IMG/VR virus record: IMGVR_UViG_3300010151_007551
Span: 23,860 to 87,859 of that record
From: a virus
Strand: one strand, 5' to 3'
Length of the DNA stretch: 64,000 nucleotides
The notes below the pieces were generated by a model, which worked only from the letters and a program-made list of their open reading frames with translations, was not told the origin of the DNA and did no database searches. The stretch's first letter is position 1. Each line of letters begins with the position of its first letter. Below are positions 7,631 through 51,174 of this stretch, in pieces. The position numbers and the translations under genes were made by a program.

Positions 7631-10002
<2,372 letters not shown>

Positions 10003-25804: not shown

Positions 25805-26100
25805 AACCTTTATATGAAAGAATTTTAATTAAACCTGTTCAAAAAGAAACATCTACTAAATCGGGTATTTTATTACCAACTAAAGCGGTTAAGCGTCCAA
25901 ATATTGGAACCGTAATAGCATGTGGAGAAGGAACACAACATAATCCTATGAAAGTTAAGGAAGGAGATGTAGTATTATGTAATAGATATGCAGGCGTAGA
26001 TATAGTTTATAAAAATGAACCTCATTACGTTATATTATCTAATGAAGTAATAGCCGTCTTGGAAAACATAGATGAGGTAAAACTCGACGAATATGAATAA
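25801..26100 (+). CDS. groES: GroES co-chaperonin (phage-encoded)
   Basis: This 99-aa protein matches bacterial GroES in length and order: KPLYERILIKPVQKE, the mobile loop TSTKSGILLPTKA, PNIGTVIACGEG, VKEGDVVLCNRYAG and a C-terminal VIAVLE. The mobile-loop motif GILLP, which contacts GroEL, is intact. In T4 this role is taken by gp31, which has almost no sequence similarity to GroES. Here the phage carries a genuine GroES together with its own GroEL (8401), although the two genes lie 16 kb apart. Confidence 0.95.
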   Translation: MKPLYERILIKPVQKETSTKSGILLPTKAVKRPNIGTVIACGEGTQHNPMKVKEGDVVLCNRYAGVDIVYKNEPHYVILSNEVIAVLENIDEVKLDEYE

Positions 26101-27112
26101 TGACTTAAAGTTCGACTTTAATGATATTTTAATATGTCCATCGGTTATAACTAATATAGAATCAAGATCTCACATTAATGTATTTTATCCTGATGGAAAC
26201 CTTCCACTTATAACTGCTCCAATGGATACCGTTATATTAGAGAAAAATGAACATGTATTTATTGAAAATAATATAATACCTTGTTTACCCAGGGGAGAAA
26301 AAGCTGGGCCTCGCTCTATAGAGTCATTTTCACTAAATGAAATGCTTAATAAATTTAAATCAAAGGAATTAAAAAAGCACAGGGGATATCTAATAGACAC
26401 AGCTAATGGTCATATAAAAAAACTAAAAGATGTCACTAGGATGATTAAGAATGAACTAGGTGATGATATATGGTTAATGATAGGAAATATAGCTAATCCA
26501 AAATCATACGCTGAATTATCTGAAGCCGGTGCAGATGCAATTAGAATAGGAATAGGCAACGGCGGAGGTTGTCTAACTACACAGCAGACTGGTGTAGGAT
26601 ATCCAATGGCTTCCTTAATAAAAGAATGTTATATTGAATCATTATCTTTAAATAATCCCGCTAAAATAGTAGCAGACGGTGGAATGAAAGATTATTCAGA
26701 TGTTATTAAAGCGCTCGCATTAGGAGCAGATTTCGTTATGATGGGTTCAATATTTAATAAAGCAATAGAAAGTTCTGGAAAAAATGTACATTATAGTAAT
26801 GCTGGTGAAACAGAACTTAGTTTAGAAGAAGCATTAGATTTGTTTAATTCTGGGAGACCTGTTTTCAAATCATTTAGAGGAATGTCTACCAAAGAGGTTC
26901 AAAGGAAATGGGGAAGGATTAATCTTAAAACATCTGAAGGAATAGTGGATACCAGAGAAGCCCAATACACTTTAAGCAGCTGGGTTGAAAACTTTAAGCA
27001 TTATCTAAGATCAGCCATGAGCTATACTAATTCTAGTGATTTAAATGAATTCATTGGGGAGACACACACTATAATGATCACTAAAAATTCATTAGATAGA
27101 TTTAAAAAATAA
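26093..27112 (+). CDS. IMP dehydrogenase / GMP reductase family enzyme
   Basis: This 339-aa TIM-barrel protein has the family hallmarks: FDFNDILICPS, LPLITAPMDTV, GIGNGGGCLTTQQTGVGYP (catalytic Cys loop), KIVADGGMKDYSDVIKALALG (phosphate-binding) and FRGMSTKEVQRKWG. There is no CBS domain. The length and TGVGYP loop are closer to GMP reductase than to IMP dehydrogenase, so it may shift the host guanine/adenine nucleotide balance in either direction. It is the last gene of the gp32 operon and overlaps groES by 8 nt. Confidence 0.82.
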   Translation: MNNDLKFDFNDILICPSVITNIESRSHINVFYPDGNLPLITAPMDTVILEKNEHVFIENNIIPCLPRGEKAGPRSIESFSLNEMLNKFKSKELKKHRGYLIDTANGHIKKLKDVTRMIKNELGDDIWLMIGNIANPKSYAELSEAGADAIRIGIGNGGGCLTTQQTGVGYPMASLIKECYIESLSLNNPAKIVADGGMKDYSDVIKALALGADFVMMGSIFNKAIESSGKNVHYSNAGETELSLEEALDLFNSGRPVFKSFRGMSTKEVQRKWGRINLKTSEGIVDTREAQYTLSSWVENFKHYLRSAMSYTNSSDLNEFIGETHTIMITKNSLDRFKK

Positions 27113-30782: not shown

Positions 30783-31286
30783 ATGAGAATATTTAAAATT
30801 AGAAACGTGAAGACTCCAACGAGGGGAACTAACATGTCAGCGGGTATTGATTTATACATACCAGAAGATTTTTATATTAAAAGAGGAGATACGCTACATC
30901 CTGCTCCTTTATATGATAAAGGCACTGGGTCCTTTAAAATAGAGCCTGGCAAATCTGTATTGATTCCATCTGGAATAAAGATAAATGTTCCAAAAGATAG
31001 AGCATTGATAGCTTTTAACAAGAGTGGAGTAGCTGTTAATAAAAATTTAATAGTTGGTGCATGTGTAATAGATGAAGATTATACAGGTGAAATACATATA
31101 GATGTAAAAAATGTTGGATCAGAATCTACTTGGATACAGGCCGGTGATAAAATAATTCAATTAATTTGCATGCCAGTTGATTACGTAAATATAGAAGAGT
31201 GCAATTCAGAACTAGAATGCTTTGGAGACACCTTAGTTTTATCTGAAAGAGGAGAAGGCGGATTCGGTTCCACGGGAACAAAATAA
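30783..31286 (+). CDS. dut: dUTPase (trimeric type)
   Basis: This 167-aa protein carries the five dUTPase motifs in order: SAGIDLYIP (I), FNKSGVAVNKNLIVGA (II, more diverged than the usual RSS-G), GACVIDEDYTGEIHI (III, with the uracil-site region), AGDKIIQLICMP (IV) and RGEGGFGSTG (V). It hydrolyses dUTP to dUMP, keeping uracil out of phage DNA and feeding the nucleotide pathway with dCMP deaminase (42756). It is the first gene after a phage promoter. Confidence 0.92.
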   Translation: MRIFKIRNVKTPTRGTNMSAGIDLYIPEDFYIKRGDTLHPAPLYDKGTGSFKIEPGKSVLIPSGIKINVPKDRALIAFNKSGVAVNKNLIVGACVIDEDYTGEIHIDVKNVGSESTWIQAGDKIIQLICMPVDYVNIEECNSELECFGDTLVLSERGEGGFGSTGTK

Positions 31287-31565: not shown

Positions 31566-32972
31566 ATGATAATTGGATGCGAGTATAATGAAAAAGTTCA
31601 ATCTTTATTAGTATCATATTATAATAAAGAAGGTAAAATATCATTTTTACAGAAAAAATTACACAAATCAGATTTATTTAATTGGAATATTTCTAAAACG
31701 CCAACTGTTGACAAAAATTGGGACGGTAGATATATTAAAAGGGCACCGTCTTCTGGTAAATGGATATCTCAATTTAGAATAGAAGAACTAATTAACGATA
31801 AATTCTCTGTGAATGAAAAGAATGCCATCTATGATATGGATAACTTTCCCATTAAAACATTTTTAGATATTGAAATAGAATTAATAGATGATACGTTTCC
31901 AACTCCAGAACAAGCAAAAATGCCAGTTAATCTTATAACCTTTTGTAATAATAAGAATAAGTGCTTTGTTTTATCAACAATGGAAAGAGGATTAGACTCT
32001 AAGTTTTCATCATCTGATTTATCCAATGATGTACATGAACATTTTAAAAAAGTAAAACCTTTAAGCGATTCTGATTCTGAAATATTAACTCAAAAATTTG
32101 ATATTAAGTATCTTACTTTTGAATCAGAGAAAGAGATGATGACATTTTTTTTCGAAAAGGTGCTAAATAGATTATCTTTTATTACAGGATGGAATGTAAT
32201 AAAATTCGATTGGGTTTATTTAATGAATAGATGTAAAAGATTAGGAATTGATCCATTTAAAAAACTACCCAGTGAAAGAGTAATTTCAAAAAGAACAAAG
32301 ATTCCATTACACACTGGCATATTGGATTATATGGAAATGGTTATGCAAATGAAACCATTTAAAGTTATTGAAAACTATACTTTAGATTATTTTGCTAATT
32401 TATCATTGGGCGTTACAAAATTAAAAAGTAAATATAGTTCAATGAAAGAAGCTCAATCTAACATGTTTGAATTTACAAAATATAATATAATAGACGTACT
32501 TCTTGTTAAAATGATAGACGATAAACTGGGTTTAATAGACGTGGCCCTATCTTTATCTGGAGTGGCTAATATTGAAGTTAATAAAGTGTTTAGCCCAGTT
32601 CATATTACTGAAATGTTAATGTGCAGAGAATTTCTAAGATCTGGATTAAAAATGGCAAAGGATGGAAAACCAGTTGGTATAAATGATTCAGAGTCATATG
32701 CAGGTGCATTTGTAATGCCAGTTGTGCCAGGTCATTATGACTTAGTAGCATGTTATGATTTTGCTTCAATGTATCCTAATATACAAATGCAATATAATAT
32801 TTCTCCAGATTCATATATCGGTAAACTCAACGGTTCGCATGAAGCCGGTGAAAACATTTTTACTAAAAATGACACGATCTTTGCAAAAAACAAAGATTCT
32901 GTAGCTAGAACAATATTAAACAGGTTATATAATGAAAGGGTTAAAACTAAGAAACAAATGAAAACTTTGTAA
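31566..32972 (+). CDS. gp43: DNA polymerase family B, N-terminal half (split gp43)
   Basis: This 468-aa protein contains the exonuclease domain (FLDIEIE; GWNVIKFDWVYL; KYNIIDVLLV) and the start of the palm with polymerase motif A, CYDFASMYPNIQMQYNISP (T4 DLTSLYPSII type). It stops shortly after NRLYNERVKTKKQMKTL, just before the fingers helix (KxxxNSxYG) and motif C (YGDTDS), which are absent here and were not found elsewhere in the window. T4 gp43 has 898 residues. Split gene-43 polymerases are known in some T4-like Aeromonas phages. The second half is probably encoded outside the window. Confidence 0.85.
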   Translation: MIIGCEYNEKVQSLLVSYYNKEGKISFLQKKLHKSDLFNWNISKTPTVDKNWDGRYIKRAPSSGKWISQFRIEELINDKFSVNEKNAIYDMDNFPIKTFLDIEIELIDDTFPTPEQAKMPVNLITFCNNKNKCFVLSTMERGLDSKFSSSDLSNDVHEHFKKVKPLSDSDSEILTQKFDIKYLTFESEKEMMTFFFEKVLNRLSFITGWNVIKFDWVYLMNRCKRLGIDPFKKLPSERVISKRTKIPLHTGILDYMEMVMQMKPFKVIENYTLDYFANLSLGVTKLKSKYSSMKEAQSNMFEFTKYNIIDVLLVKMIDDKLGLIDVALSLSGVANIEVNKVFSPVHITEMLMCREFLRSGLKMAKDGKPVGINDSESYAGAFVMPVVPGHYDLVACYDFASMYPNIQMQYNISPDSYIGKLNGSHEAGENIFTKNDTIFAKNKDSVARTILNRLYNERVKTKKQMKTL

Positions 32973-35797: not shown

Positions 35798-36149
35798 AAC
35801 TAAAATAAAAATTAAAGATAATCTTAAATTAAAATATTATTTGGGTTTACATTTAAGAGGAGGTTATTCTAATAATGATTCAGTTTTATTTGAGTTAATA
35901 AACTATATTATATCAAATAATGTTGAAAATAAAGATAAAAATATATCTTATTCAAATTTAAAATTTTCTATAAAAACATTAAAATACATTTTCGGGGAAG
36001 ATATTTTAAACGATGATTTTAAAAATCAAATTATTTTTAGTATTAAAGAGTTAATTAAAGATAAAAAAATAGATGTTAATAAAAAATATTTTCATATAAC
36101 TGAAGATGGAATTAACACCTTTTATAACATAAATGGTAAATATAAATGA
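35781..36149 (+). CDS. Hypothetical protein between uvsX and helicase, 122 aa
   Basis: The family is not recognised. It is a small, Lys/Asn/Ile-rich protein whose layout (helices, then SIKELIKDKKIDVNKKYFHI) recalls a winged-helix domain: helix-helix, then a beta wing with YFHITEDGINTF. It overlaps uvsX by 17 nt and the helicase by 4 nt. In T4 the gene in this place is gene 40, but no similarity to it is claimed. A winged-helix DNA-binding role is only a suggestion. Confidence 0.55.
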   Translation: MQTSIKTKIKIKDNLKLKYYLGLHLRGGYSNNDSVLFELINYIISNNVENKDKNISYSNLKFSIKTLKYIFGEDILNDDFKNQIIFSIKELIKDKKIDVNKKYFHITEDGINTFYNINGKYK

Positions 36150-37660
36150 TAGAATTTATTGAAAATATAGAGCTTCTTGAAAAAATGATTTGGAATTTCG
36201 TTTTAAATCCCAATACGGATGAAGATTTATTAAAACCAAGCAACGGAGAAGAGTTTCTTGATAAAAACGAATTGATAGTTAAAATAAAATCTAAGTACTT
36301 TCAAAACGAAGACTTGGAGTTAACTTGGAAACACGCATCTATGTTTTTTAAGGAATATAAAAAGATTCCAACTAAAAAAGATTTACGTCAGTATTTAGAT
36401 ATAAAGAATCAAGAGATTAGCGATTCTGTTTTCAATGAAATTTATAATTATAATTTATCAGAATACAATTATAGTTTTTTATATAAATATGTAAAATCAT
36501 TTATATTATTGAGAAGCTTAAATGTCACAATGATAGATCTTCTTACTATGTTAAAGACAACGGATATTAATCCAGATAATATAGAAGAAGTAATAAACAG
36601 GGTTAGAAATTCTATAAATGACAAGTTGTCTGTTAATTTTGAATCGGGAAGATCGGGTTTAAATTTTTTAAATCCACTTCATCATATTCAAATATCTAAG
36701 GAAGGACTTCCGACAGGTTTTGCGTTTTTTGATAAAACACAAGGTGGTGGATGGAATCCTAAAACATTAGTTGTTTTTCAAGGTAGACCCAAGGTGGGAA
36801 AGTCTATTGTTCTAGGTAATATTGCTACTAGATCGTTTTTATCTGGAGTAAACACTGGTGTCGTTACCGTTGAGCTTTCTGAAAATAAATATATGAAAAG
36901 ATTAGGTTCTAATATATTGGAAATAAAATCAGTTGAGTATGATAAATTTACTCAAAAAGAGGCTATGGATAAATTATTTAATAAATTAAAAATATTTAAA
37001 GAGTCAGGTAATTCCTATGGTGAATTGATAATAAAAGAATTTCCAACAGGTGGCGCTACAGCAATTGATATAGAAAATTATTTTATACGACAGGAAAAAG
37101 AATTAAATAAAAAGTTTAGAGTAATAGTTGTAGATTATATTAATTTAATGAGACCTATTAAAGAACAGGGTGGACTATATGAAAAAATAAAAGTTATATC
37201 TGAGGAATTAAGAGGAGTTGCTATGAGAAATGAATGGTGTTTAATAACAGCTACTCAAATAAAACGAGATTCCATTGATGATTTTGATTTAGGAATGGAT
37301 TCTGTTGCTGAATCATTTGGTTTAATACACACCGTTGATACTCTATATGGATTAATGAGAGGTCCCCTTGAACAGCGAATGAAAATAAAACTAATAGCGA
37401 ATAGAGATAATGGATATGAAGAAAGCTATAGGTTTTACGATATGCACAAAGATTACATGAGATTAGCTGAATCGTTTGGAGAAAATAGTGAATATTATAG
37501 CGATGACGATCAGCTTCATCAAATGGAAGATGATCTTAGAAGATCTTATAAATCTCTGTCTGCTTCTAATAATGGAGATGAAGAAAATTCTGTTCATGCA
37601 GTTGAACTTTCTTCAGAAAAAACTACAAGTGAATATGATGATTTATTAAATCAGATTTAA
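36146..37660 (+). CDS. gp41: Replicative DNA helicase, gp41 (DnaB-like)
   Basis: This 504-aa protein has a helical N-terminal domain (residues 1-165) and a RecA-type motor: GFAFFDKTQGGGW, Walker A FQGRPKVGKSIVLG near residue 215, TGVVTVELSENKYMKRL, Walker B RVIVVDYINLMRP near 330 and the ATQIKRDS motif. It unwinds the fork ahead of the polymerase as a hexamer. T4 gp41 has 475 residues. No intein was seen, although gp41-type helicases are known split-intein hosts in environmental phage sequences. Confidence 0.9.
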   Translation: MIEFIENIELLEKMIWNFVLNPNTDEDLLKPSNGEEFLDKNELIVKIKSKYFQNEDLELTWKHASMFFKEYKKIPTKKDLRQYLDIKNQEISDSVFNEIYNYNLSEYNYSFLYKYVKSFILLRSLNVTMIDLLTMLKTTDINPDNIEEVINRVRNSINDKLSVNFESGRSGLNFLNPLHHIQISKEGLPTGFAFFDKTQGGGWNPKTLVVFQGRPKVGKSIVLGNIATRSFLSGVNTGVVTVELSENKYMKRLGSNILEIKSVEYDKFTQKEAMDKLFNKLKIFKESGNSYGELIIKEFPTGGATAIDIENYFIRQEKELNKKFRVIVVDYINLMRPIKEQGGLYEKIKVISEELRGVAMRNEWCLITATQIKRDSIDDFDLGMDSVAESFGLIHTVDTLYGLMRGPLEQRMKIKLIANRDNGYEESYRFYDMHKDYMRLAESFGENSEYYSDDDQLHQMEDDLRRSYKSLSASNNGDEENSVHAVELSSEKTTSEYDDLLNQI

Positions 37661-38236: not shown

Positions 38237-39364
38237 ATGGAATTAAGTAATATAAATAAAATCTTTTTATTAGGGGATTTACATTTAGGCATACGTAACA
38301 ATTCAATAGAATGGTCTAAATCTCAGAGTGATTTTTTAATAGAATATTTTTGTAATAAAATAGATGAATTAGGATTTAATCCTGATACTGATATTTTAAT
38401 TCAAGAGGGAGATTGGTTTCATAATAGGGAAAGTACAAATAATAGAATATGGAAAGATTCATTAAAAATATTTGATATTCTTTCTAATAAATTTAAAAGG
38501 GGCGTTTATGTTATATTAGGCAATCATGATGTTTATTATAAAGATAATAATAGCATACATTCTCTACTTGGAATTGAAAAGATGTTTGATAATATTCATG
38601 TTTTTTCAAAGCATGAGATATTACATATTAATAAATGTCACAAATTTTTAATGTTACCTTGGGTAGAAGATGATGAACAAATAACTAAAATAGTTTCATC
38701 ATATTCTGATAAAGCAGACTATATTATATGTCATGCAGACATTAAGAATTTTAAACTCAACAAGTGGGTAAAAATAAATTCGGGTTTAGATTCTAATTAC
38801 TTAAAGTCTTTTAAAAGAGTTTATTCTGGTCACATACATATTCATCAAGAAGAAGGCAATGTTTTATATACTGGAACTCCCTATGAATTAGACAGAGGGG
38901 ATAGAGGAAACGTTAAAGGCTTTTACACATTAGACGTTAGTGATTCTAAAATAAAAGAACACTTTACAGAAAATTTATTTTCGCCTAAGCACATTAAAAT
39001 AGATGTTGAAGACATGTTAGAATTAAATGTAGAAAGTATTAAAAAATTGTTTAATAATAATTATGTAGATGTAATGATAAAAATAGATAAGGCAAACAGT
39101 TTTCCTGTAACCAGATTTATGGAATTAATAGACTCTTTTGATCAAAGAAGAATTGAATTTTTTACATATAATTCATCTATTCAAAAAGAAAAGATACAAA
39201 GAGATTTAGAATTAGATAGAATAAAAGAATACGATATTTATGAAATATTTAAAGAGTGTTTATTAGAAAGAAAGTATTCCAAAACAATGAATTCTAATAT
39301 AGAAAAATATTTTAAAAATTTGTATGAAAGTACTAAAAATAATGAAAAGGAACATTATGAATAA
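38237..39364 (+). CDS. gp47: Recombination nuclease subunit gp47 (SbcD/Mre11)
   Basis: This 375-aa protein has the five metallophosphoesterase motifs: LLGDLHLGI, EGDWFHNRES, VILGNHDVYY, YIICHADI and YSGHIHIHQ. These bind two Mn ions for DNA end processing. With gp46 it forms the Mre11-Rad50-type complex that resects ends and helps degrade host DNA. Unlike T4, where 47 and 46 are close neighbours, a lipoprotein-type nuclease gene is inserted between them here and overlaps the gp47 stop. Confidence 0.9.
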   Translation: MELSNINKIFLLGDLHLGIRNNSIEWSKSQSDFLIEYFCNKIDELGFNPDTDILIQEGDWFHNRESTNNRIWKDSLKIFDILSNKFKRGVYVILGNHDVYYKDNNSIHSLLGIEKMFDNIHVFSKHEILHINKCHKFLMLPWVEDDEQITKIVSSYSDKADYIICHADIKNFKLNKWVKINSGLDSNYLKSFKRVYSGHIHIHQEEGNVLYTGTPYELDRGDRGNVKGFYTLDVSDSKIKEHFTENLFSPKHIKIDVEDMLELNVESIKKLFNNNYVDVMIKIDKANSFPVTRFMELIDSFDQRRIEFFTYNSSIQKEKIQRDLELDRIKEYDIYEIFKECLLERKYSKTMNSNIEKYFKNLYESTKNNEKEHYE

Positions 39365-39940: not shown

Positions 39941-41641
39941 ATGAAACTTATTAAATTTTCTTGGAGAAATATATGTTCTTATGGAAATAAGACACAGGAG
40001 TTTACTGTTTCAGAAAACCCACAGCTAATACTAGTTGAAGGAAAAAATGGATCTGGAAAGTCCTCAATTAAAGAAGCTCTTACTGTTTCTTTATATGGGA
40101 AATCTGCGGTTAGAAAAACAAGAGATATTCCAAATAGGATTAATAGAAATGCATATACTGTAAATGAATTTATCACATCTTCAGGTGACCATGTAAAAAT
40201 AGAAAGGGGCATTGATCCTAATTTTACAAATTTAGAAATAAATGGAAGTTCGTATAATTTACCAGATAAAAGAAAAGTTGATCTTTTTTTAGAAGATGAA
40301 TTAATAAAATTACCATTTTCTGTATTTTCTAATACAATAAGCCTTTCTTTTGAAGATTTTAAATCGTTTATTAAATTAACTCCTACAGACAAAAGGAAAA
40401 TAGTAGATAAAATATTTGGAACAGATATTTTAACAGACATGTTAGTTAAAACAAAAGATGAGTCTAAAGAAAATAGTAGAGATTTAGAGTTTTTAAATAC
40501 AGATATTTTAAATAACACTGACATTTTAGAAAAATCACAAGAACAGCTTGAAATATTAAAAAACGCTGTTAATGAGAAAAAAGATATTGAGATAGATACT
40601 AAAAATAAAGATATTGTTAAAAAAGAAACAGAAAAGGATAAGTTGAATGTTGATCTAGATAAATTTTTAAAAATATTATCATCAAATAAAGAAGATTTAC
40701 AGAAATGTAAAGACACTTTATCTAAAAATAATGCAGCTTTGTTAGAAATTGACAAAAAGTTAAAAATATATGATAATAATAAGTGTCCACATTGTTTAAG
40801 TAATCTCACAGATGATAGTCATATAAAAATAAAGGATGCTATAATTTCAAAAAGGGAAATTTTTGAAAATAAGATACCGAATATAGAAAAATCTATAAAG
40901 AAATCATTTAATGATGTAAAGGATATAGATGATTCATCTAAAACTGTTAAAAATAACATTTATAATCTAGATATAGAAATATCATCTTTAAAATCAGATA
41001 TAAAGTCATTGAAAAGCAGTGGCTCTGATCAAACGTCATCGCTTCTTAAGATAATATCTGAGATTCAGAAGAAAATAGATGCATCATCAATAGAAATTGA
41101 TAAAAAAACTAAAAAACAATTAATTTTAACAGAAGTAGAGGAACTATTATCAGATAGTGGTATAAAAAGAGCTTTAATGGATAGAATAATTCCAGTTTTA
41201 AATGCTAAGATACTAAAAATAAGCAAACAACTAGAATTTAAGTTTTCTTTTGAATTTAATAATGCATTTGATGCTATTATTTCTCATATGGGAGAGGAAA
41301 TTTCATCAGATAGTCTTTCTACGGGTGAACAAAAGAAAATGAACTTAATAGTATTGTTAAGCATGTTAGAATTAATAAAAATGAAGCATCATCAAGTAAA
41401 TATGCTGTTTTTAGATGAAATATTTAGTTCTTTGGACAAAGAAAGCATATATATGACCATCGAGATATTAAAAGAGTTTTCTCAATGTCACAATTTAACT
41501 ATATTTGTAATATCACATGATCCACTCCCGGAAGAGCTTTTTGATAAGAAAATAATGATAACAAAAGATAATTTCTTTTCAGAAATGAATATTTTATCAA
41601 AAAATAAGTCTGAAAGAACCAAACTAGAACAAATAGTATAA
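39941..41641 (+). CDS. gp46: Recombination nuclease subunit gp46 (SbcC/Rad50)
   Basis: This 566-aa SMC-like ATPase has Walker A VEGKNGSGKSS near residue 35, two coiled-coil arms around the zinc hook CPHC near residue 283, signature SLSTGEQKKMN near 460 and Walker B MLFLDEIFSSLDKES near 490. Its length matches T4 gp46 (560 aa). It gates the gp47 nuclease and bridges DNA ends. Its last codons contain the promoter of the dCMP hydroxymethylase-like gene. Confidence 0.93.
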   Translation: MKLIKFSWRNICSYGNKTQEFTVSENPQLILVEGKNGSGKSSIKEALTVSLYGKSAVRKTRDIPNRINRNAYTVNEFITSSGDHVKIERGIDPNFTNLEINGSSYNLPDKRKVDLFLEDELIKLPFSVFSNTISLSFEDFKSFIKLTPTDKRKIVDKIFGTDILTDMLVKTKDESKENSRDLEFLNTDILNNTDILEKSQEQLEILKNAVNEKKDIEIDTKNKDIVKKETEKDKLNVDLDKFLKILSSNKEDLQKCKDTLSKNNAALLEIDKKLKIYDNNKCPHCLSNLTDDSHIKIKDAIISKREIFENKIPNIEKSIKKSFNDVKDIDDSSKTVKNNIYNLDIEISSLKSDIKSLKSSGSDQTSSLLKIISEIQKKIDASSIEIDKKTKKQLILTEVEELLSDSGIKRALMDRIIPVLNAKILKISKQLEFKFSFEFNNAFDAIISHMGEEISSDSLSTGEQKKMNLIVLLSMLELIKMKHHQVNMLFLDEIFSSLDKESIYMTIEILKEFSQCHNLTIFVISHDPLPEELFDKKIMITKDNFFSEMNILSKNKSERTKLEQIV

Positions 41642-41642
41642 T
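41617..41642 (+). promoter_or_regulatory. Phage AACY/TATAAT promoter within the end of gp46
   Basis: AACCAAAC begins exactly 20 nt before TATAAT (41637), preceded by TAG. It lies in the last codons of gp46 and points to the TS-family gene at 41686. Confidence 0.6.
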
Positions 41643-41685
41643 AGAATATATATAATATTTTATTACTATAAAAAATACAGTGTTT

Positions 41686-42564
41686 ATGAAAATTTATTCC
41701 AATAATACTTTCGCTTCTTCATATAATCATCTTTTAAGTGACCTTATGTCAATAGAAGCAGCTAATAATTCAGCGCGTTCGCTTCCAACTAGAGAAATAA
41801 TAGATGGGTGCATAGAATTGCACGATCCTATTAATTGTATGTATTTAAACAATGCTAGGTCTTCTCAATTTAGATATATTGCAGCAGAATTCATGTGGTA
41901 TTTTTTGGGAAGAAATGATGTTGATTTTATTAAAGAGTATGCTAAATTCTGGTTACAAATTCAGAATCCAGACGGAACTGTCAATTCTTCATATGGAAAT
42001 TTAATATTTAATATAAAAAACAGTCACGGGTATACTCAATATGCATGGGCACTCAATTCTTTACTTAAAGATAAAAATACTCGTCAAGCGGTGTTACATT
42101 TTAATTCAGCGGATCATCAATATGATAGTAATAAGGATTTTGTATGTACAATGTATGCAAATTTTCTAATTAGAGATAATAAATTGAGAATGTCTGTAAA
42201 AATGAGAAGTAATGATGTAATATTAGGGTTACCAACAGATGTCGCATTTTTCACAGTACTACAACAACAAATACTTAGTCATTTGCGTAAATTAAAATAT
42301 CCAGATTTAGAATTAGGCACATATACTCACATTGTAGATTCTCTTCATGTATATGAGAGACACTATGGTTTAGTTGAAAGAATGTTAGATGAAGATTTTA
42401 TTAATGTTCAGATGCCAACATTATATTCAGATTTAATAGACTTAACTGGAACGCCTTCCATTAATTTATTAGAAATAGGCGAATCTAAAGAAAACGATGA
42501 TCTACTTATGTGGATTCATGAAAATATGAAAATTAAAAAAGATGTTAAAGCGGTTCAAAAATAA
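41686..42564 (+). CDS. Thymidylate synthase family enzyme, predicted dCMP hydroxymethylase
   Basis: ATG at 41686 is chosen over a GTG two codons upstream; the product has 292 aa. Motifs follow the TS/hydroxymethylase family: AAEFMWYFLGRND with catalytic Glu, NSSYGNLIF (T4 NSNYGWAIW), DFVCTMYANFLIRD with catalytic Cys near residue 154, MRSNDVILGLPTDVAFF and DSLHVYERHY. The residue equivalent to E. coli TS Asn177 is Asp (PTD, residue 185), as in T4 dCMP hydroxymethylase. T4 gp42 shares CTN, LIRD and MRSNDV with it. The enzyme probably makes 5-hydroxymethyl-dCMP; a dCMP methylase is the alternative. Confidence 0.75.
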   Translation: MKIYSNNTFASSYNHLLSDLMSIEAANNSARSLPTREIIDGCIELHDPINCMYLNNARSSQFRYIAAEFMWYFLGRNDVDFIKEYAKFWLQIQNPDGTVNSSYGNLIFNIKNSHGYTQYAWALNSLLKDKNTRQAVLHFNSADHQYDSNKDFVCTMYANFLIRDNKLRMSVKMRSNDVILGLPTDVAFFTVLQQQILSHLRKLKYPDLELGTYTHIVDSLHVYERHYGLVERMLDEDFINVQMPTLYSDLIDLTGTPSINLLEIGESKENDDLLMWIHENMKIKKDVKAVQK

Positions 42565-42766
42565 ATTACCAAATATAGCTAAAGGATTTGGTGCAATAAT
42601 AGGGGGTTTAATATTTTGGATAATTGCCGCAACTATTAATTACTCAATATATTATTATATGTTAAGTGACGTTATTAAATTAAGTTTAATTAATTTTATA
42701 GGAATATATGTAATAATATTACAATTTTTAATTGTTATAAAAATATTTATGAAAAATGACAAGTAA
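42542..42766 (+). CDS. Small membrane protein with two TM segments, 74 aa
   Basis: A basic start (MLKRFKNKLPNIAKG) is followed by two hydrophobic helices at about residues 16-40 (GAIIGGLIFWIIAATIN) and 46-68 (IKLSLINFIGIYVIILQFL), ending in a short basic tail. The layout is that of a small holin or inner-membrane regulator, but it lies among nucleotide genes with no endolysin beside it. It overlaps the preceding gene by 23 nt and the next by 11 nt. Function unknown. Confidence 0.55.
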   Translation: MLKRFKNKLPNIAKGFGAIIGGLIFWIIAATINYSIYYYMLSDVIKLSLINFIGIYVIILQFLIVIKIFMKNDK

Positions 42767-43178
42767 GGATTTACAATATCATAAGACATATTTGAGAATG
42801 GCTATTGAATGGTCAAGTTTATCTAAAAGTAAGAGAAAACAAGTAGGATCATTAATAGTAAAAGATGGTATGATAATATCTGATGGATTTAATGGTGCAC
42901 CAACTGGTTTCCCAAATGACTGTGAGGACCTTGACGGATCAACATATTGGCATGTTTTACATGCAGAAGCAAATGCTATTTTAAAATGCGCAAAGCATGG
43001 TATTTCATGTAAAGATGCCACATTATATTTAACAATGTCACCGTGTAAAGAGTGTTCTAAATTAATAATACAAGCGTCTATTAAAAGAGTTGTATATTAT
43101 TTACCATATAGGGATTTGGATGGATTAAAAATGTTAAAATCAGTTGGTGTAGATGTTATTCAAATAGCCGATGTATAA
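42756..43178 (+). CDS. cd: dCMP deaminase
   Basis: This 140-aa protein has the deaminase zinc motifs HAEANAILKCAKHG and MSPCKECSK and an N-terminal RMAIEWSSLSKSKRKQVGSLIV, as in T4 cd and ComEB. It converts dCMP to dUMP. With the dCMP-directed enzyme just upstream and dUTPase at 30783, it balances dUMP and dCMP supply. The zinc-ligand His and two Cys and the catalytic Glu are intact. Confidence 0.9.
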   Translation: MTSKDLQYHKTYLRMAIEWSSLSKSKRKQVGSLIVKDGMIISDGFNGAPTGFPNDCEDLDGSTYWHVLHAEANAILKCAKHGISCKDATLYLTMSPCKECSKLIIQASIKRVVYYLPYRDLDGLKMLKSVGVDVIQIADV

Positions 43179-43193
43179 AAAATTATAATAAAA

Positions 43194-43613
43194 ATGCAAG
43201 AATTAGAACAAGACGCACAGGAAACTAGAGAAGTTAACATGATTTTCATTAAAGAATTTAAATTTTTCATAAAGAAATTTAATAAAAAACAAAAGGAAGA
43301 TTATATGTTAAATGTAAATAAAATAGTTAGAGATAAGTTCAATACTAAATTCTTAGTTCCCAATAAAGTTCAAGCCTTTTTATTAAATTATGAAATTAAA
43401 AAATTATTGGATAAAGCTATCAATATAAAGAATGAAAAATATAATAGAATAATTTATTTAAATTCCGATATGACACCAACTGGTATAATGAATACTTTAA
43501 CTTTCTTAAGTAATGAATATTATCACATTGAATTTAAATATCATATAATTGATCCAAAGGAGGATTTTGATAGGTGTACTTTTGAAAATGATAATATAGC
43601 ATTTATAGACTAG
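43194..43613 (+). CDS. Hypothetical protein, 139 aa
   Basis: The family is not recognised. It is a Lys/Asn/Phe-rich protein (FIKKFNKKQKEDYMLNVNK). The last 55 residues alternate strands (YNRIIYLNSDMTPTGIMN, then EYYHIEFKYHII). It ends the plus-strand nucleotide operon, and its stop overlaps the stop of the convergent gene by 4 nt. No terminator lies between them. Confidence 0.5.
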   Translation: MQELEQDAQETREVNMIFIKEFKFFIKKFNKKQKEDYMLNVNKIVRDKFNTKFLVPNKVQAFLLNYEIKKLLDKAINIKNEKYNRIIYLNSDMTPTGIMNTLTFLSNEYYHIEFKYHIIDPKEDFDRCTFENDNIAFID

Positions 43614-45076
43614 TGTGCTGAACAAGAAGAAGGACCAGCGCCCAACGCTGTTCCCGGGCTATGTCCAGTATTTGTAGCTTTCTTGATAGCAATATCAGTT
43701 CCTTGTCCATAATATCCATCGGCCTTTACTCCTAATTCTGCTTGCGCTTTTTTTACCCATTTTTTTGTATTTGGTCCATATTTACCATCTTCCTTTAATG
43801 GTGCATTTGGGATATCTTCTGTGAACTCTCCTGTTAATAACATATTTACTTGGTTTTGAGCAGTTTCAACTGCGTCGCCACAATCACCGACGCGCAAATA
43901 ACTTTTTCCTTTAGCTAGAATATCCAGGAGCCAATTATTATCTAAATTTCGTTGGCAGTAAAATCCGGCAGGTTCATTAGACTCTTCAGAGTCCACGTCT
44001 ATGTTTTTTGATCCTCCATTTTTAAACACCCAATAACCTTTACCTTGTGCAGAAATATAATAAGCATCATCACCGTAAACAGCTTTTAAATCTTCTGCTT
44101 CTTCGGGTGTACCTACCCATTTGCGCTCTTTATATTCTTCATTACAAGAAGAAGGACCAGCGCCCAATGCTATTTCTTCTGTGTTACAAGACGGACCGGC
44201 ATTTAGATGAATTTCTTCTATGTCAAATTCTTCGCTTTCACCACGATCTTCTTCTTTCTCTAAACTGTTTATCATTGCTATTCCCAAAATCCTTGCTGCT
44301 TCTTCTGCCGATATGTTTAAATAATCAGATAGATCTTGCACTGCGGCGGCTAGTTTATTTTTTGGATTAGGATCAACGTCTCTTTTAGGTGGACGAGTTG
44401 GGTTGAATGTTCTTCTTTTTGGAGTAGTCGTTTCTGTTTCTACTTCTTCTTCTGTTTCTACTGGCGCAGTTTCAGTATCTGCATCTAATACGTCATATTC
44501 TTCTTCAAACCAGTTTTCATTAACGTTAAATTCATTAAAATTAGAAATACATTTTCCTTCTGTTAAAACGTCTTTTTCTTTCTTTTTTAACTTATCTAGT
44601 ATTTTCTTTTCTCTATCTAGTTGAGATATTACATTGTCATTTAAGTCAATTGTTCCCTTCACTTCTCCGGTTATTCTACCTGTTCCAAATGGTACTTCTT
44701 TCTTTTCATTAACGAATGTATCGAAATTAGGTAAAACACTTTCACTAGTTTCATATTCTCCAACTTCCACTGTGGCAACTCCGGTTAGGTATGGATCAGC
44801 GTATTTAATAGGTTCTTTTCCGGCTTGTTTATATACTAAATCATTAGTCATCGCTTTATATGTAGAATTATAATGCTGATGTTTAAACATTGGAGATCTT
44901 TCAACCACGTTTCGATATCCCTTTAGTTTATTTTCACTATCGTTCTTTGGTATTTCTTTACCTTTTGCATCTCTAGCATATTTTAAAGAATCGTTTCCTC
45001 CGAATCCAGGTTTCTTTAAATCGATGTATGAATCAAAGTTTAAAATATCTCTTCTATGTATGTCAAATAAATCCAT
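43610..45076 (-). CDS. Peptidoglycan-binding virion protein, 488 aa
   Basis: The N-terminal 170 residues are polar and structural in type. The middle is acidic with a basic, Pro-rich linker (KRRTFNPTRPPKRD). The C-terminal region (about residues 405-470) is a peptidoglycan-binding domain (LRVGDCGDAVETAQNQVN, DGKYGPNTKKWVKKAQ, GVKADGYYGQGT). Three short AGPS(S)C motifs (NAGPSC, GAGPSSC, GAGPSSC) punctuate it, the last at the very end. A perfect 24-bp direct repeat (43622-43645 and 44144-44167) encodes two of them. It follows the tail tube gene, so it may sit at the tail end and contact the cell wall; this is inference. Confidence 0.6.
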   Translation of the reverse strand: MDLFDIHRRDILNFDSYIDLKKPGFGGNDSLKYARDAKGKEIPKNDSENKLKGYRNVVERSPMFKHQHYNSTYKAMTNDLVYKQAGKEPIKYADPYLTGVATVEVGEYETSESVLPNFDTFVNEKKEVPFGTGRITGEVKGTIDLNDNVISQLDREKKILDKLKKKEKDVLTEGKCISNFNEFNVNENWFEEEYDVLDADTETAPVETEEEVETETTTPKRRTFNPTRPPKRDVDPNPKNKLAAAVQDLSDYLNISAEEAARILGIAMINSLEKEEDRGESEEFDIEEIHLNAGPSCNTEEIALGAGPSSCNEEYKERKWVGTPEEAEDLKAVYGDDAYYISAQGKGYWVFKNGGSKNIDVDSEESNEPAGFYCQRNLDNNWLLDILAKGKSYLRVGDCGDAVETAQNQVNMLLTGEFTEDIPNAPLKEDGKYGPNTKKWVKKAQAELGVKADGYYGQGTDIAIKKATNTGHSPGTALGAGPSSCSAH

Positions 45077-50463: not shown

Positions 50464-51174
50464 ATGGAGAATATTACAACTGTGGATTATTATGGGGAAT
50501 TTAAAGACTATGTTATTAAACACATGGGAGTTAGTGGAATGCAGTTTCACTATTGGGAAAAATTACAAGATAGGATATATTCTACTAGTGCATCTATGAC
50601 ACCATATATATTGGAGGAACGAGAAATGCGCGTAACTCAAATGGATATTTTTTCAAGACTAATGATGGATAGAATATTATGGGTGGCCGGTCCCGTTAAT
50701 GATAGCATGAGTACAGTTGTTCAAGCACAGTTGATGTTTTTAGATAACGTAGACACTAGAGATATTAAAATGTATGTGGATAGTCCAGGAGGATCTGTTA
50801 AATCTGGATTATCAATGGTAGACGTTATGGCTTTTATACAATCAGATGTTTCTACTACTAATACTGGAATGGCTGCTTCTATGGGATCAATATTATTAGG
50901 CGCAGGAACCAAAGGAAAAAGGTTTTCTTTAGAGCACAGTAGAGTAATGTTACATCAAGTTAGTTCAGGTGCACAAGGAAACATTCAAGATATTAGAATA
51001 TCATTAGCCGAAGCTGAAAAATATAATAGCTTATTATTTGATCTTTTAGCAGAGTATTGTGATAAAAAACCTAAAGAAGTATTAAAATTTGCTTCTAGAG
51101 ACAAGTGGTTAAATGCAGAAGAGGCATTGGAATATGGAATTATAGATGGTATTCATAAAAAAGATGATGAATAG
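50464..51174 (+). CDS. clpP: ClpP-type serine protease
   Basis: This 236-aa protein has the ClpP core with Ser139 in GMAASMGS, His164 in VMLHQVSS and Asp213 in SRDKWLNAEEALEYG, so the triad is complete. The N-terminus is about 40 residues longer than E. coli mature ClpP (193 aa). VDSPGGSVKSGLSM forms the substrate-binding strand. It may replace or redirect host ClpP, or act in capsid maturation; the separate gp21-type prohead protease at 53970 makes the latter less likely. It is 4 bp after gp52 and adjacent to the Smr gene. Confidence 0.9.
   Translation: MENITTVDYYGEFKDYVIKHMGVSGMQFHYWEKLQDRIYSTSASMTPYILEEREMRVTQMDIFSRLMMDRILWVAGPVNDSMSTVVQAQLMFLDNVDTRDIKMYVDSPGGSVKSGLSMVDVMAFIQSDVSTTNTGMAASMGSILLGAGTKGKRFSLEHSRVMLHQVSSGAQGNIQDIRISLAEAEKYNSLLFDLLAEYCDKKPKEVLKFASRDKWLNAEEALEYGIIDGIHKKDDE

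Follow-up and report, generated by a model that had tools for sequence, protein, structure and literature searches.

A gene at positions 41686..42564 (+ strand) of the window, the whole 64,000-nucleotide stretch of phage DNA analysed here, is predicted with high probability to encode a dCMP 5-hydroxymethylase (EC 2.1.2.8 type; hereafter HMase), a T4 gp42-like protein of 292 aa with a thymidylate synthase (TS) fold. This divergent version of T4 gp42 belongs to an enzyme family already known, in which it represents a new branch with many members; it is not a new kind of system. Homology, active-site residues, phylogeny, and a gene order that is itself conserved were observed, and the enzyme activity is what we infer from them. 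The original prediction had named a T4 gp42-type dCMP hydroxymethylase, an identity on which residues, phylogeny, fold ranking, and the separate TS of relatives now agree; that the phage makes 5-hydroxymethyl-dCMP, as was also proposed, can reasonably be inferred from its sequence. The phage, uncultured and T4-like, is represented by record G000 (87.9 kb) and the nearly identical, longer record G001 (136.8 kb), which together cover about 147 kb.

Family placement and active-site residues

The HMase reading frame extends from ATG at 41686 to the stop codon TAA at 42562-42564. The mechanical ORF call started at GTG 41680, and the Met at 41686 was invariant across 40 aligned homologues. Searches matched the protein to the Pfam TS model with E = 2e-20 and to phage TS families with E values down to 6e-40, so its sequence similarity to the HMase/TS family is well beyond chance. 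By sequence, the nearest solved structures were MilA (3e-23) and T4 dCMP HMase (2e-21), with E. coli TS (8e-9) behind them, and the NCBIfam thymidylate-synthase equivalog models gave the HMase 39.6-62 bits, far under their cut-offs of 108-405. The window protein is much nearer to dCMP/CMP hydroxymethylases than to genuine thymidylate synthases. The Pfam TS profile aligned to position 226/266 only, with the TS C-terminal part outside the match, and T4dCH is likewise devoid of the TS C-terminal tail (PMC6400193).

Scanning of IMG/VR revealed 273 places encoding an HMase relative, the best 80 of which were used for comparison. Alignment confirmed that Asp185 in LGLPTDVAFF, the residue pointed out in the original prediction, occupies the column of E. 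coli TS Asn177 and T4 gp42 Asp179. Asp was found at this specificity position in 80/80 uncultured relatives (the best 80 of 273) as well as in T4 gp42, Xp15, vipetofem, ATCCB, phage G, and others, while E. coli ThyA and the SPO1-type dUMP hydroxymethylase (gp29) carry Asn. The stretches DFVCTMY, LIRD, and MRSNDV, previously said to match T4 gp42 better than TS, indeed aligned with DFMCTN, LIRD, and MRSNDV of T4; E. coli TS reads APCHAFF, VADG, and QRSCDV at the same places. An independent metagenomic association study (MetaGPA) identified TS positions 177 (Asn versus Asp, with Asp going along with cytosine-modified phage DNA) and 147 as the top residues tied to modified cytosine (PMC8670742), and the window HMase has Asp at the former and Thr at the latter, which is His in TS.

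Twelve residues of the HMase correspond to the active site of T4 dCMP HMase, namely E68 (T4 Glu60), S101 (Ser94), Y103 (Tyr96), R133 (Arg123), D151 (Asp145), C154 (Cys148), T155 (Thr149), S175 (Ser169), D177 (Asp171), D185 (Asp179), H221 (His216), and Y223 (Tyr218), and W89 matches Trp82 of T4. All the T4 gp42 catalytic residues tested (Cys148, Glu60, Asp145, Ser94, Tyr96, and Asp171) are present. The T4 structure paper assigned roles to Asp179, Cys148, Glu60, Ser94, Tyr96, and Asp145, and noted that the last, which is polar, has no counterpart in active sites other than that of T4dCH and that its D145N exchange abolishes dCMP binding (PMC6400193). The sole notable difference is the phosphate-binding Arg124 of T4, which is replaced by Gln134, invariant in the clade alignment, with the adjacent Arg123 kept as R133. 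The loss of the second arginine speaks against a T4 gp42-type enzyme, although this residue does not define the family. Since Gln or Lys is found at this position in other Asp-bearing phage pyrimidine HMase-like proteins, and Gln in the SPO1-type dUMP HMase too, Gln134 is not diagnostic.

An ordinary thymidylate synthase acting on dUMP would have the same fold and family, the adjoining dCMP deaminase would supply its dUMP, and no other TS, neither ThyA nor ThyX, was found in G000/G001, records of a genome that may be incomplete. Nevertheless, this reading is very improbable in view of the uniform Asp for Asn177 (80/80 of the best 80 of 273), the Thr for His147, the scores far under the TS equivalog cut-offs, and the separation in the tree described below. 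True ThyA or ThyX is also present in relatives: besides the HMase, G004, G005, and G007 possess a canonical ThyA showing Asn and the PCH motif, and G008 carries ThyX, so that the HMase cannot be the only TS of these relatives. In the ThyA proteins of G004 and G005, the TS match is interrupted by extra stretches (frames about 390-400 aa).

A hydroxymethylase of another substrate, either dUMP (SPO1 gp29 type) or CMP (MilA type), is the least probable of the identities weighed here. MilA is the top PDB match in both sequence and fold, and the SPO1-type enzyme has the same Arg-Gln pair, yet the latter carries Asn where the window protein has Asp185. The CMP preference of MilA was attributed to Lys133 and Ala176, and the A176S/K133R exchange turned MilA to dCMP (PMC5175136). 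In the clade these positions are Arg and Ser (Arg133 and Ser175 in the window HMase), the dCMP-choosing residues.

Phylogeny, predicted fold and probable product of the reaction

Phylogenetic analysis joined the clade with the T4 gp42 group and with Xp15/HHU4 at a support of 98/98 (97/98 with RB69 added) and set the thymidylate synthases apart from the clade at 100/100. MilA, SPO1 gp29, and RB69 formed long branches of unsure placement. The AF2 model of the HMase had a pLDDT of 90.4 and a pTM of 0.90, and its best fold match was MilA (Z 28, rmsd 2.6 over about 265 residues; VIA), compared with a Z of about 22 and an rmsd of about 3.0 for TS (VIA). T4 gp42 ranked 10-11 in Foldseek and was not among the best 50 matches listed by VIA, which is a matter of ranking and not evidence against kinship.

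A 5-hydroxy-dCMP synthase (RB69/AfhB type), a flavin-dependent TS-fold monooxygenase that places OH directly onto C5, was weighed as an alternative. In RB69-type phages, 5-hydroxy-dCMP is the product of a different enzyme of the TS superfamily (PMC13390438), the fold search also matched the solved dCMP hydroxylases 9iqc and 9iqu (Z about 22), and the specificity Asp alone does not exclude this type because the RB69 protein has it as well. However, RB69 p048, the one member compared, has lost Asp171 (Asn), Trp82 (Ala), Tyr218 (Phe), and Asp145 (Glu) of T4, whereas the window HMase keeps D177, W89, Y223, and D151. RB69 p048 scored 35 bits against the window HMase, compared with 39 for TS, 80 for T4 gp42, and 86 for MilA, and 9iqc/9iqu reached just 35 bits. 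Hydroxylation of this kind is thus hardly to be expected. The TS, dUMP HMase, CMP HMase, and 5-hydroxy-dCMP synthase identities were all rejected by the residue table together with the tree.

A dCMP methylase would use the same substrate and cofactor, with the methylene adduct reduced by hydride to 5-methyl-dCMP, a product exemplified by the DNA of phage Xp12. The specificity Asp does not separate a methyl from a hydroxymethyl product. According to PMC8670742, which refers to Hardy and Nalivaika (1992) and to Liu and Santi (1992), TS becomes a dCMP methylase with the single Asn-to-Asp exchange, and the residue taken alone is hence no proof of hydroxymethylation. On the other hand, the remaining active site is like T4 gp42 and unlike TS (S101, D151, and T155), the TS C-terminal part falls outside the profile match as in the tailless T4dCH, and the tree joins the HMase to T4 gp42 and Xp15/HHU4, the Xp12 enzyme lying outside the comparison. 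Moreover, in Xp15-type phages such a gene is accompanied by one for a carbamoyltransferase, an arrangement active on 5hmC in the MetaGPA study (PMC8670742). A methylase is accordingly considered unlikely, if somewhat less so than the other alternatives.

For the preferred dCMP hydroxymethylase, the overall route is most likely as in T4 gp42. Cys154 would attack C6 of dCMP, and Asp185 would hydrogen-bond with and protonate the cytosine ring, by which cytosine would be chosen over uracil. Methylene-tetrahydrofolate activated by Glu68 would then give its one-carbon unit to C5, and the final step would be carried out by water, not hydride, leading to 5-hydroxymethyl-dCMP.

Gene neighbourhood and the predicted supply of hydroxymethylated nucleotides

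The clade shows a fixed gene order of gp41, gp47, gp46, HMase, dCMP deaminase, and a 139-aa protein. In the window, all on the + strand, the gp41-like replicative helicase (DnaB fold; 36146..37660) forms the upstream end of the conserved block, followed by the gp47-like (SbcD-type) subunit (38237..39364) and the gp46-like (SbcC/Rad50-type) recombination nuclease subunit (39941..41641) directly upstream of the HMase, an order in which gp46 precedes the HMase in 66/72 loci. The neighbouring dCMP deaminase noted earlier was recovered at 42756..43178 as a T4 Cd-like protein, with a small 74-aa ORF (42542..42766, recognisable in 10/80 clade loci) sitting between it and the HMase. The deaminase, found in 16/16 genomes, is always downstream of the HMase in the clade, lying 3' of it within about 400 bases in 75/75 loci with room. 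The third gene of the block (43194..43613) encodes the conserved 139-aa protein with no Pfam or PHROG match, whose model was weakly like polynucleotide-kinase-like P-loop folds (T4 Pnk), with a best PDB match at E 1.2e-2; a Walker A motif is absent from it. A DNA/RNA non-specific endonuclease gene (PF01223; 39324-39938) is inserted between gp47 and gp46 and is absent there in G004, G006, and G007.

The HMase had also been said to share a promoter embedded in gp46, which the search did not sustain: 22 sigma-70-like sites were found at 41000-43700 against 21.3 expected, that is, at chance frequency, and the Bacteroidota-type -33/-7 pattern had no match in the HMase/gp46 region.

In T4, DNA synthesis with hmC needs gp56 for the removal of dCTP, gp1 for the phosphorylation of hm-dCMP, and glucosyltransferases for the protection of hmC. 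No gp56 dCTPase was recognised in G000/G001, and a trimeric dUTPase-family protein with all five motifs is encoded at 30783..31286 (+), in a slot next to a family-B DNA polymerase gene that covers the N-terminal (exonuclease) half of the enzyme (31566..32972, +). The polymerase is split into two distant genes (window 31566-32972 and G001:34998-36446), and Aeromonas phage 31.2 possesses two polymerase genes as well. T4 gp56-type proteins (dCTPase/dUTPase) occur in G002, G004, G005, G006, G012, G013, and G014, and trimeric dUTPases in G000/G001, G003, G007, G008, G010, and G011. The two are mutually exclusive, with 0 genomes having both, and G009 and G015, which start near the HMase, having neither. 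When near-identical records are counted once and relatedness is ignored, the probability that 11 records would show such complete exclusion by chance is 1 in 462. In all of them but G007, the coordinates place gp56 or the dUTPase about 10-12 kb upstream of the HMase, and the slot beside the polymerase gene was seen in the genomes mapped (G001, G004, and G006). On the HMase tree, the exchange occurred at least three times (four by parsimony).

No gp56 was seen in vipetofem or ATCCB either, both of which have an HMase and a beta-glucosyltransferase. Together with the exclusion, this suggests that in these phages either the removal of dCTP is not essential or the dUTPase took it over. One tentative scenario is a T4-like hmC route in which an unrelated protein of the trimeric dUTPase fold took the place of gp56 several times independently, for the most part at one and the same slot: the dUTPase may have gained dCTPase activity, or a mixture of dC and hmC may be tolerated with dCTP removal dispensable. 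We regard this scenario as possible rather than probable, and the dCTPase/dUTPase interchange itself is the most interesting by-product of the analysis.

Regarding the kinase step, no convincing match to the T4-type dNMP kinase gp1 was obtained, only three short pieces at 17-20 bits. A thymidylate-kinase-family P-loop protein (phrog_761) was weakly matched at G001:42418-43035 (= L108:4418-5035), outside the window, and matches to this family, several of them very short, were present in 11/16 records. It is a plausible candidate hm-dCMP kinase, its substrate being a guess. In the proposed pathway, this kinase would plausibly phosphorylate 5-hydroxymethyl-dCMP, the host NDP kinase would complete hm-dCTP, and the phage polymerase would incorporate it, probably for the evasion of host restriction. 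The dCMP deaminase would draw on the same dCMP pool, turning some of it into dUMP from which thymidylate is made.

The phage carries a predicted T4-like hydroxymethylating enzyme, and its DNA therefore probably contains modified cytosine; hmC in virion DNA is considered likely, with somewhat less certainty than the identity of the enzyme. That no gp1, gp56, or T4-type glucosyltransferase was found counts against the hydroxymethylase reading. Replacement of all cytosine is doubtful and not supported, because a dUTPase is present and a dCTPase was not recognised, and the substitution may be partial.

The phage and its relation to known systems

The window phage possesses a T4-type Gp23 and a T4-like replication set, and among named phages it matches huge uncultured and Prevotella (Lak) phages best. 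Relatives were found in genome bins labelled Bacteroidetes, Flavobacteriales, and, once, Aenigmatarchaeota (a 4.6-kb contig); such metagenome bins were the only cellular matches, two of the three labelled Bacteroidota, and a Bacteroidota host is likely. The phage also encodes a Cpn60 chaperonin (8401-10002), an IMPDH/GMP-reductase-family protein (26093-27112), and a ClpP-like protease (50464-51174).

A role of the glycan genes at 57-64 kb in adding sugars to the DNA, which had been suggested speculatively, found no support. This region and its continuation (window 57094-63824, L108:17135-18970, and L109:1447-2139) contain PseF-like, sialyltransferase-like, WbqC, PIG-L, sulfotransferase, methyltransferase, NeuB, GT29, and GT2 genes near structural genes including the Gp23 capsid gene. 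Judged by its NeuB, PseF-like cytidylyltransferase, and sialyltransferase-like members, the cluster is assigned to the nonulosonic-acid type. T4-type alpha- and beta-glucosyltransferases were not found in 16 records, including the known ~147 kb of the window phage, in a search whose positive control for the beta family recovered T4, vipetofem, and ATCCB, the alpha family having no control. Likewise, the clade records searched contained no homologue of the vipetofem and ATCCB glucosyltransferases, and phmmer found no homologue of T4 denA, denB, alc, or arn in five records, in itself weak evidence.

These results extend predicted hmC DNA synthesis to a large group of uncultured T4-related phages in which HMase and deaminase form a fixed operon. 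The repeated exchange of gp56 and dUTPase offers a natural comparison for whether the destruction of dCTP is required for cytosine replacement, as in T4. Modified cytosines, if present, could bias metagenomic libraries of these phages or make them resistant to restriction-based methods.

Among known systems, MilA, the CMP 5-hydroxymethylase, is the best structural match and shares the specificity Asp and a C-terminal region that aligned further than that of TS, but differs in Lys133 and Ala176. The RB69-type 5-hydroxy-dCMP synthase (AfhB, 9iqu) shares the TS superfamily, the dCMP substrate, and the Asp, but is without the equivalents of Asp171, Trp82, and Tyr218 that the window clade keeps. 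Enterococcus phage vipetofem and Lactobacillus phage ATCCB also have an HMase-like gene with Asp and show no gp56; a trimeric dUTPase gene lies beside the HMase in the former and a phrog_761 (thymidylate-kinase) gene in the latter. In both, unlike the window clade, in which none was found, a beta-glucosyltransferase gene adjoins the HMase.

The HMase-like proteins of Xanthomonas phage Xp15 and Acinetobacter phage HHU4 share the Asp and the tree neighbourhood with T4 gp42, and in Xp15 a dCMP deaminase gene adjoins the HMase-like gene. Xp15 also encodes a carbamoyltransferase by which hmC could be decorated, and no homologue of it was found in G000, G001, G004, G006, or G007. T4 itself has in common with the window phage the fold, the catalytic Cys/Glu/Asp, the cytosine-selecting Asp, and the deoxyribose-selecting Ser/Arg, together with gp41/gp46/gp47-type replication genes close by and a dCMP deaminase in the genome. 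The two enzymes are about 30% identical, and the window HMase has Gln for Arg124 and a longer C-terminus. Unlike T4, in the window phage no gp1, gp56, or T4 glucosyltransferases were found, and its HMase, dCMP deaminase, and 139-aa protein form a fixed operon.
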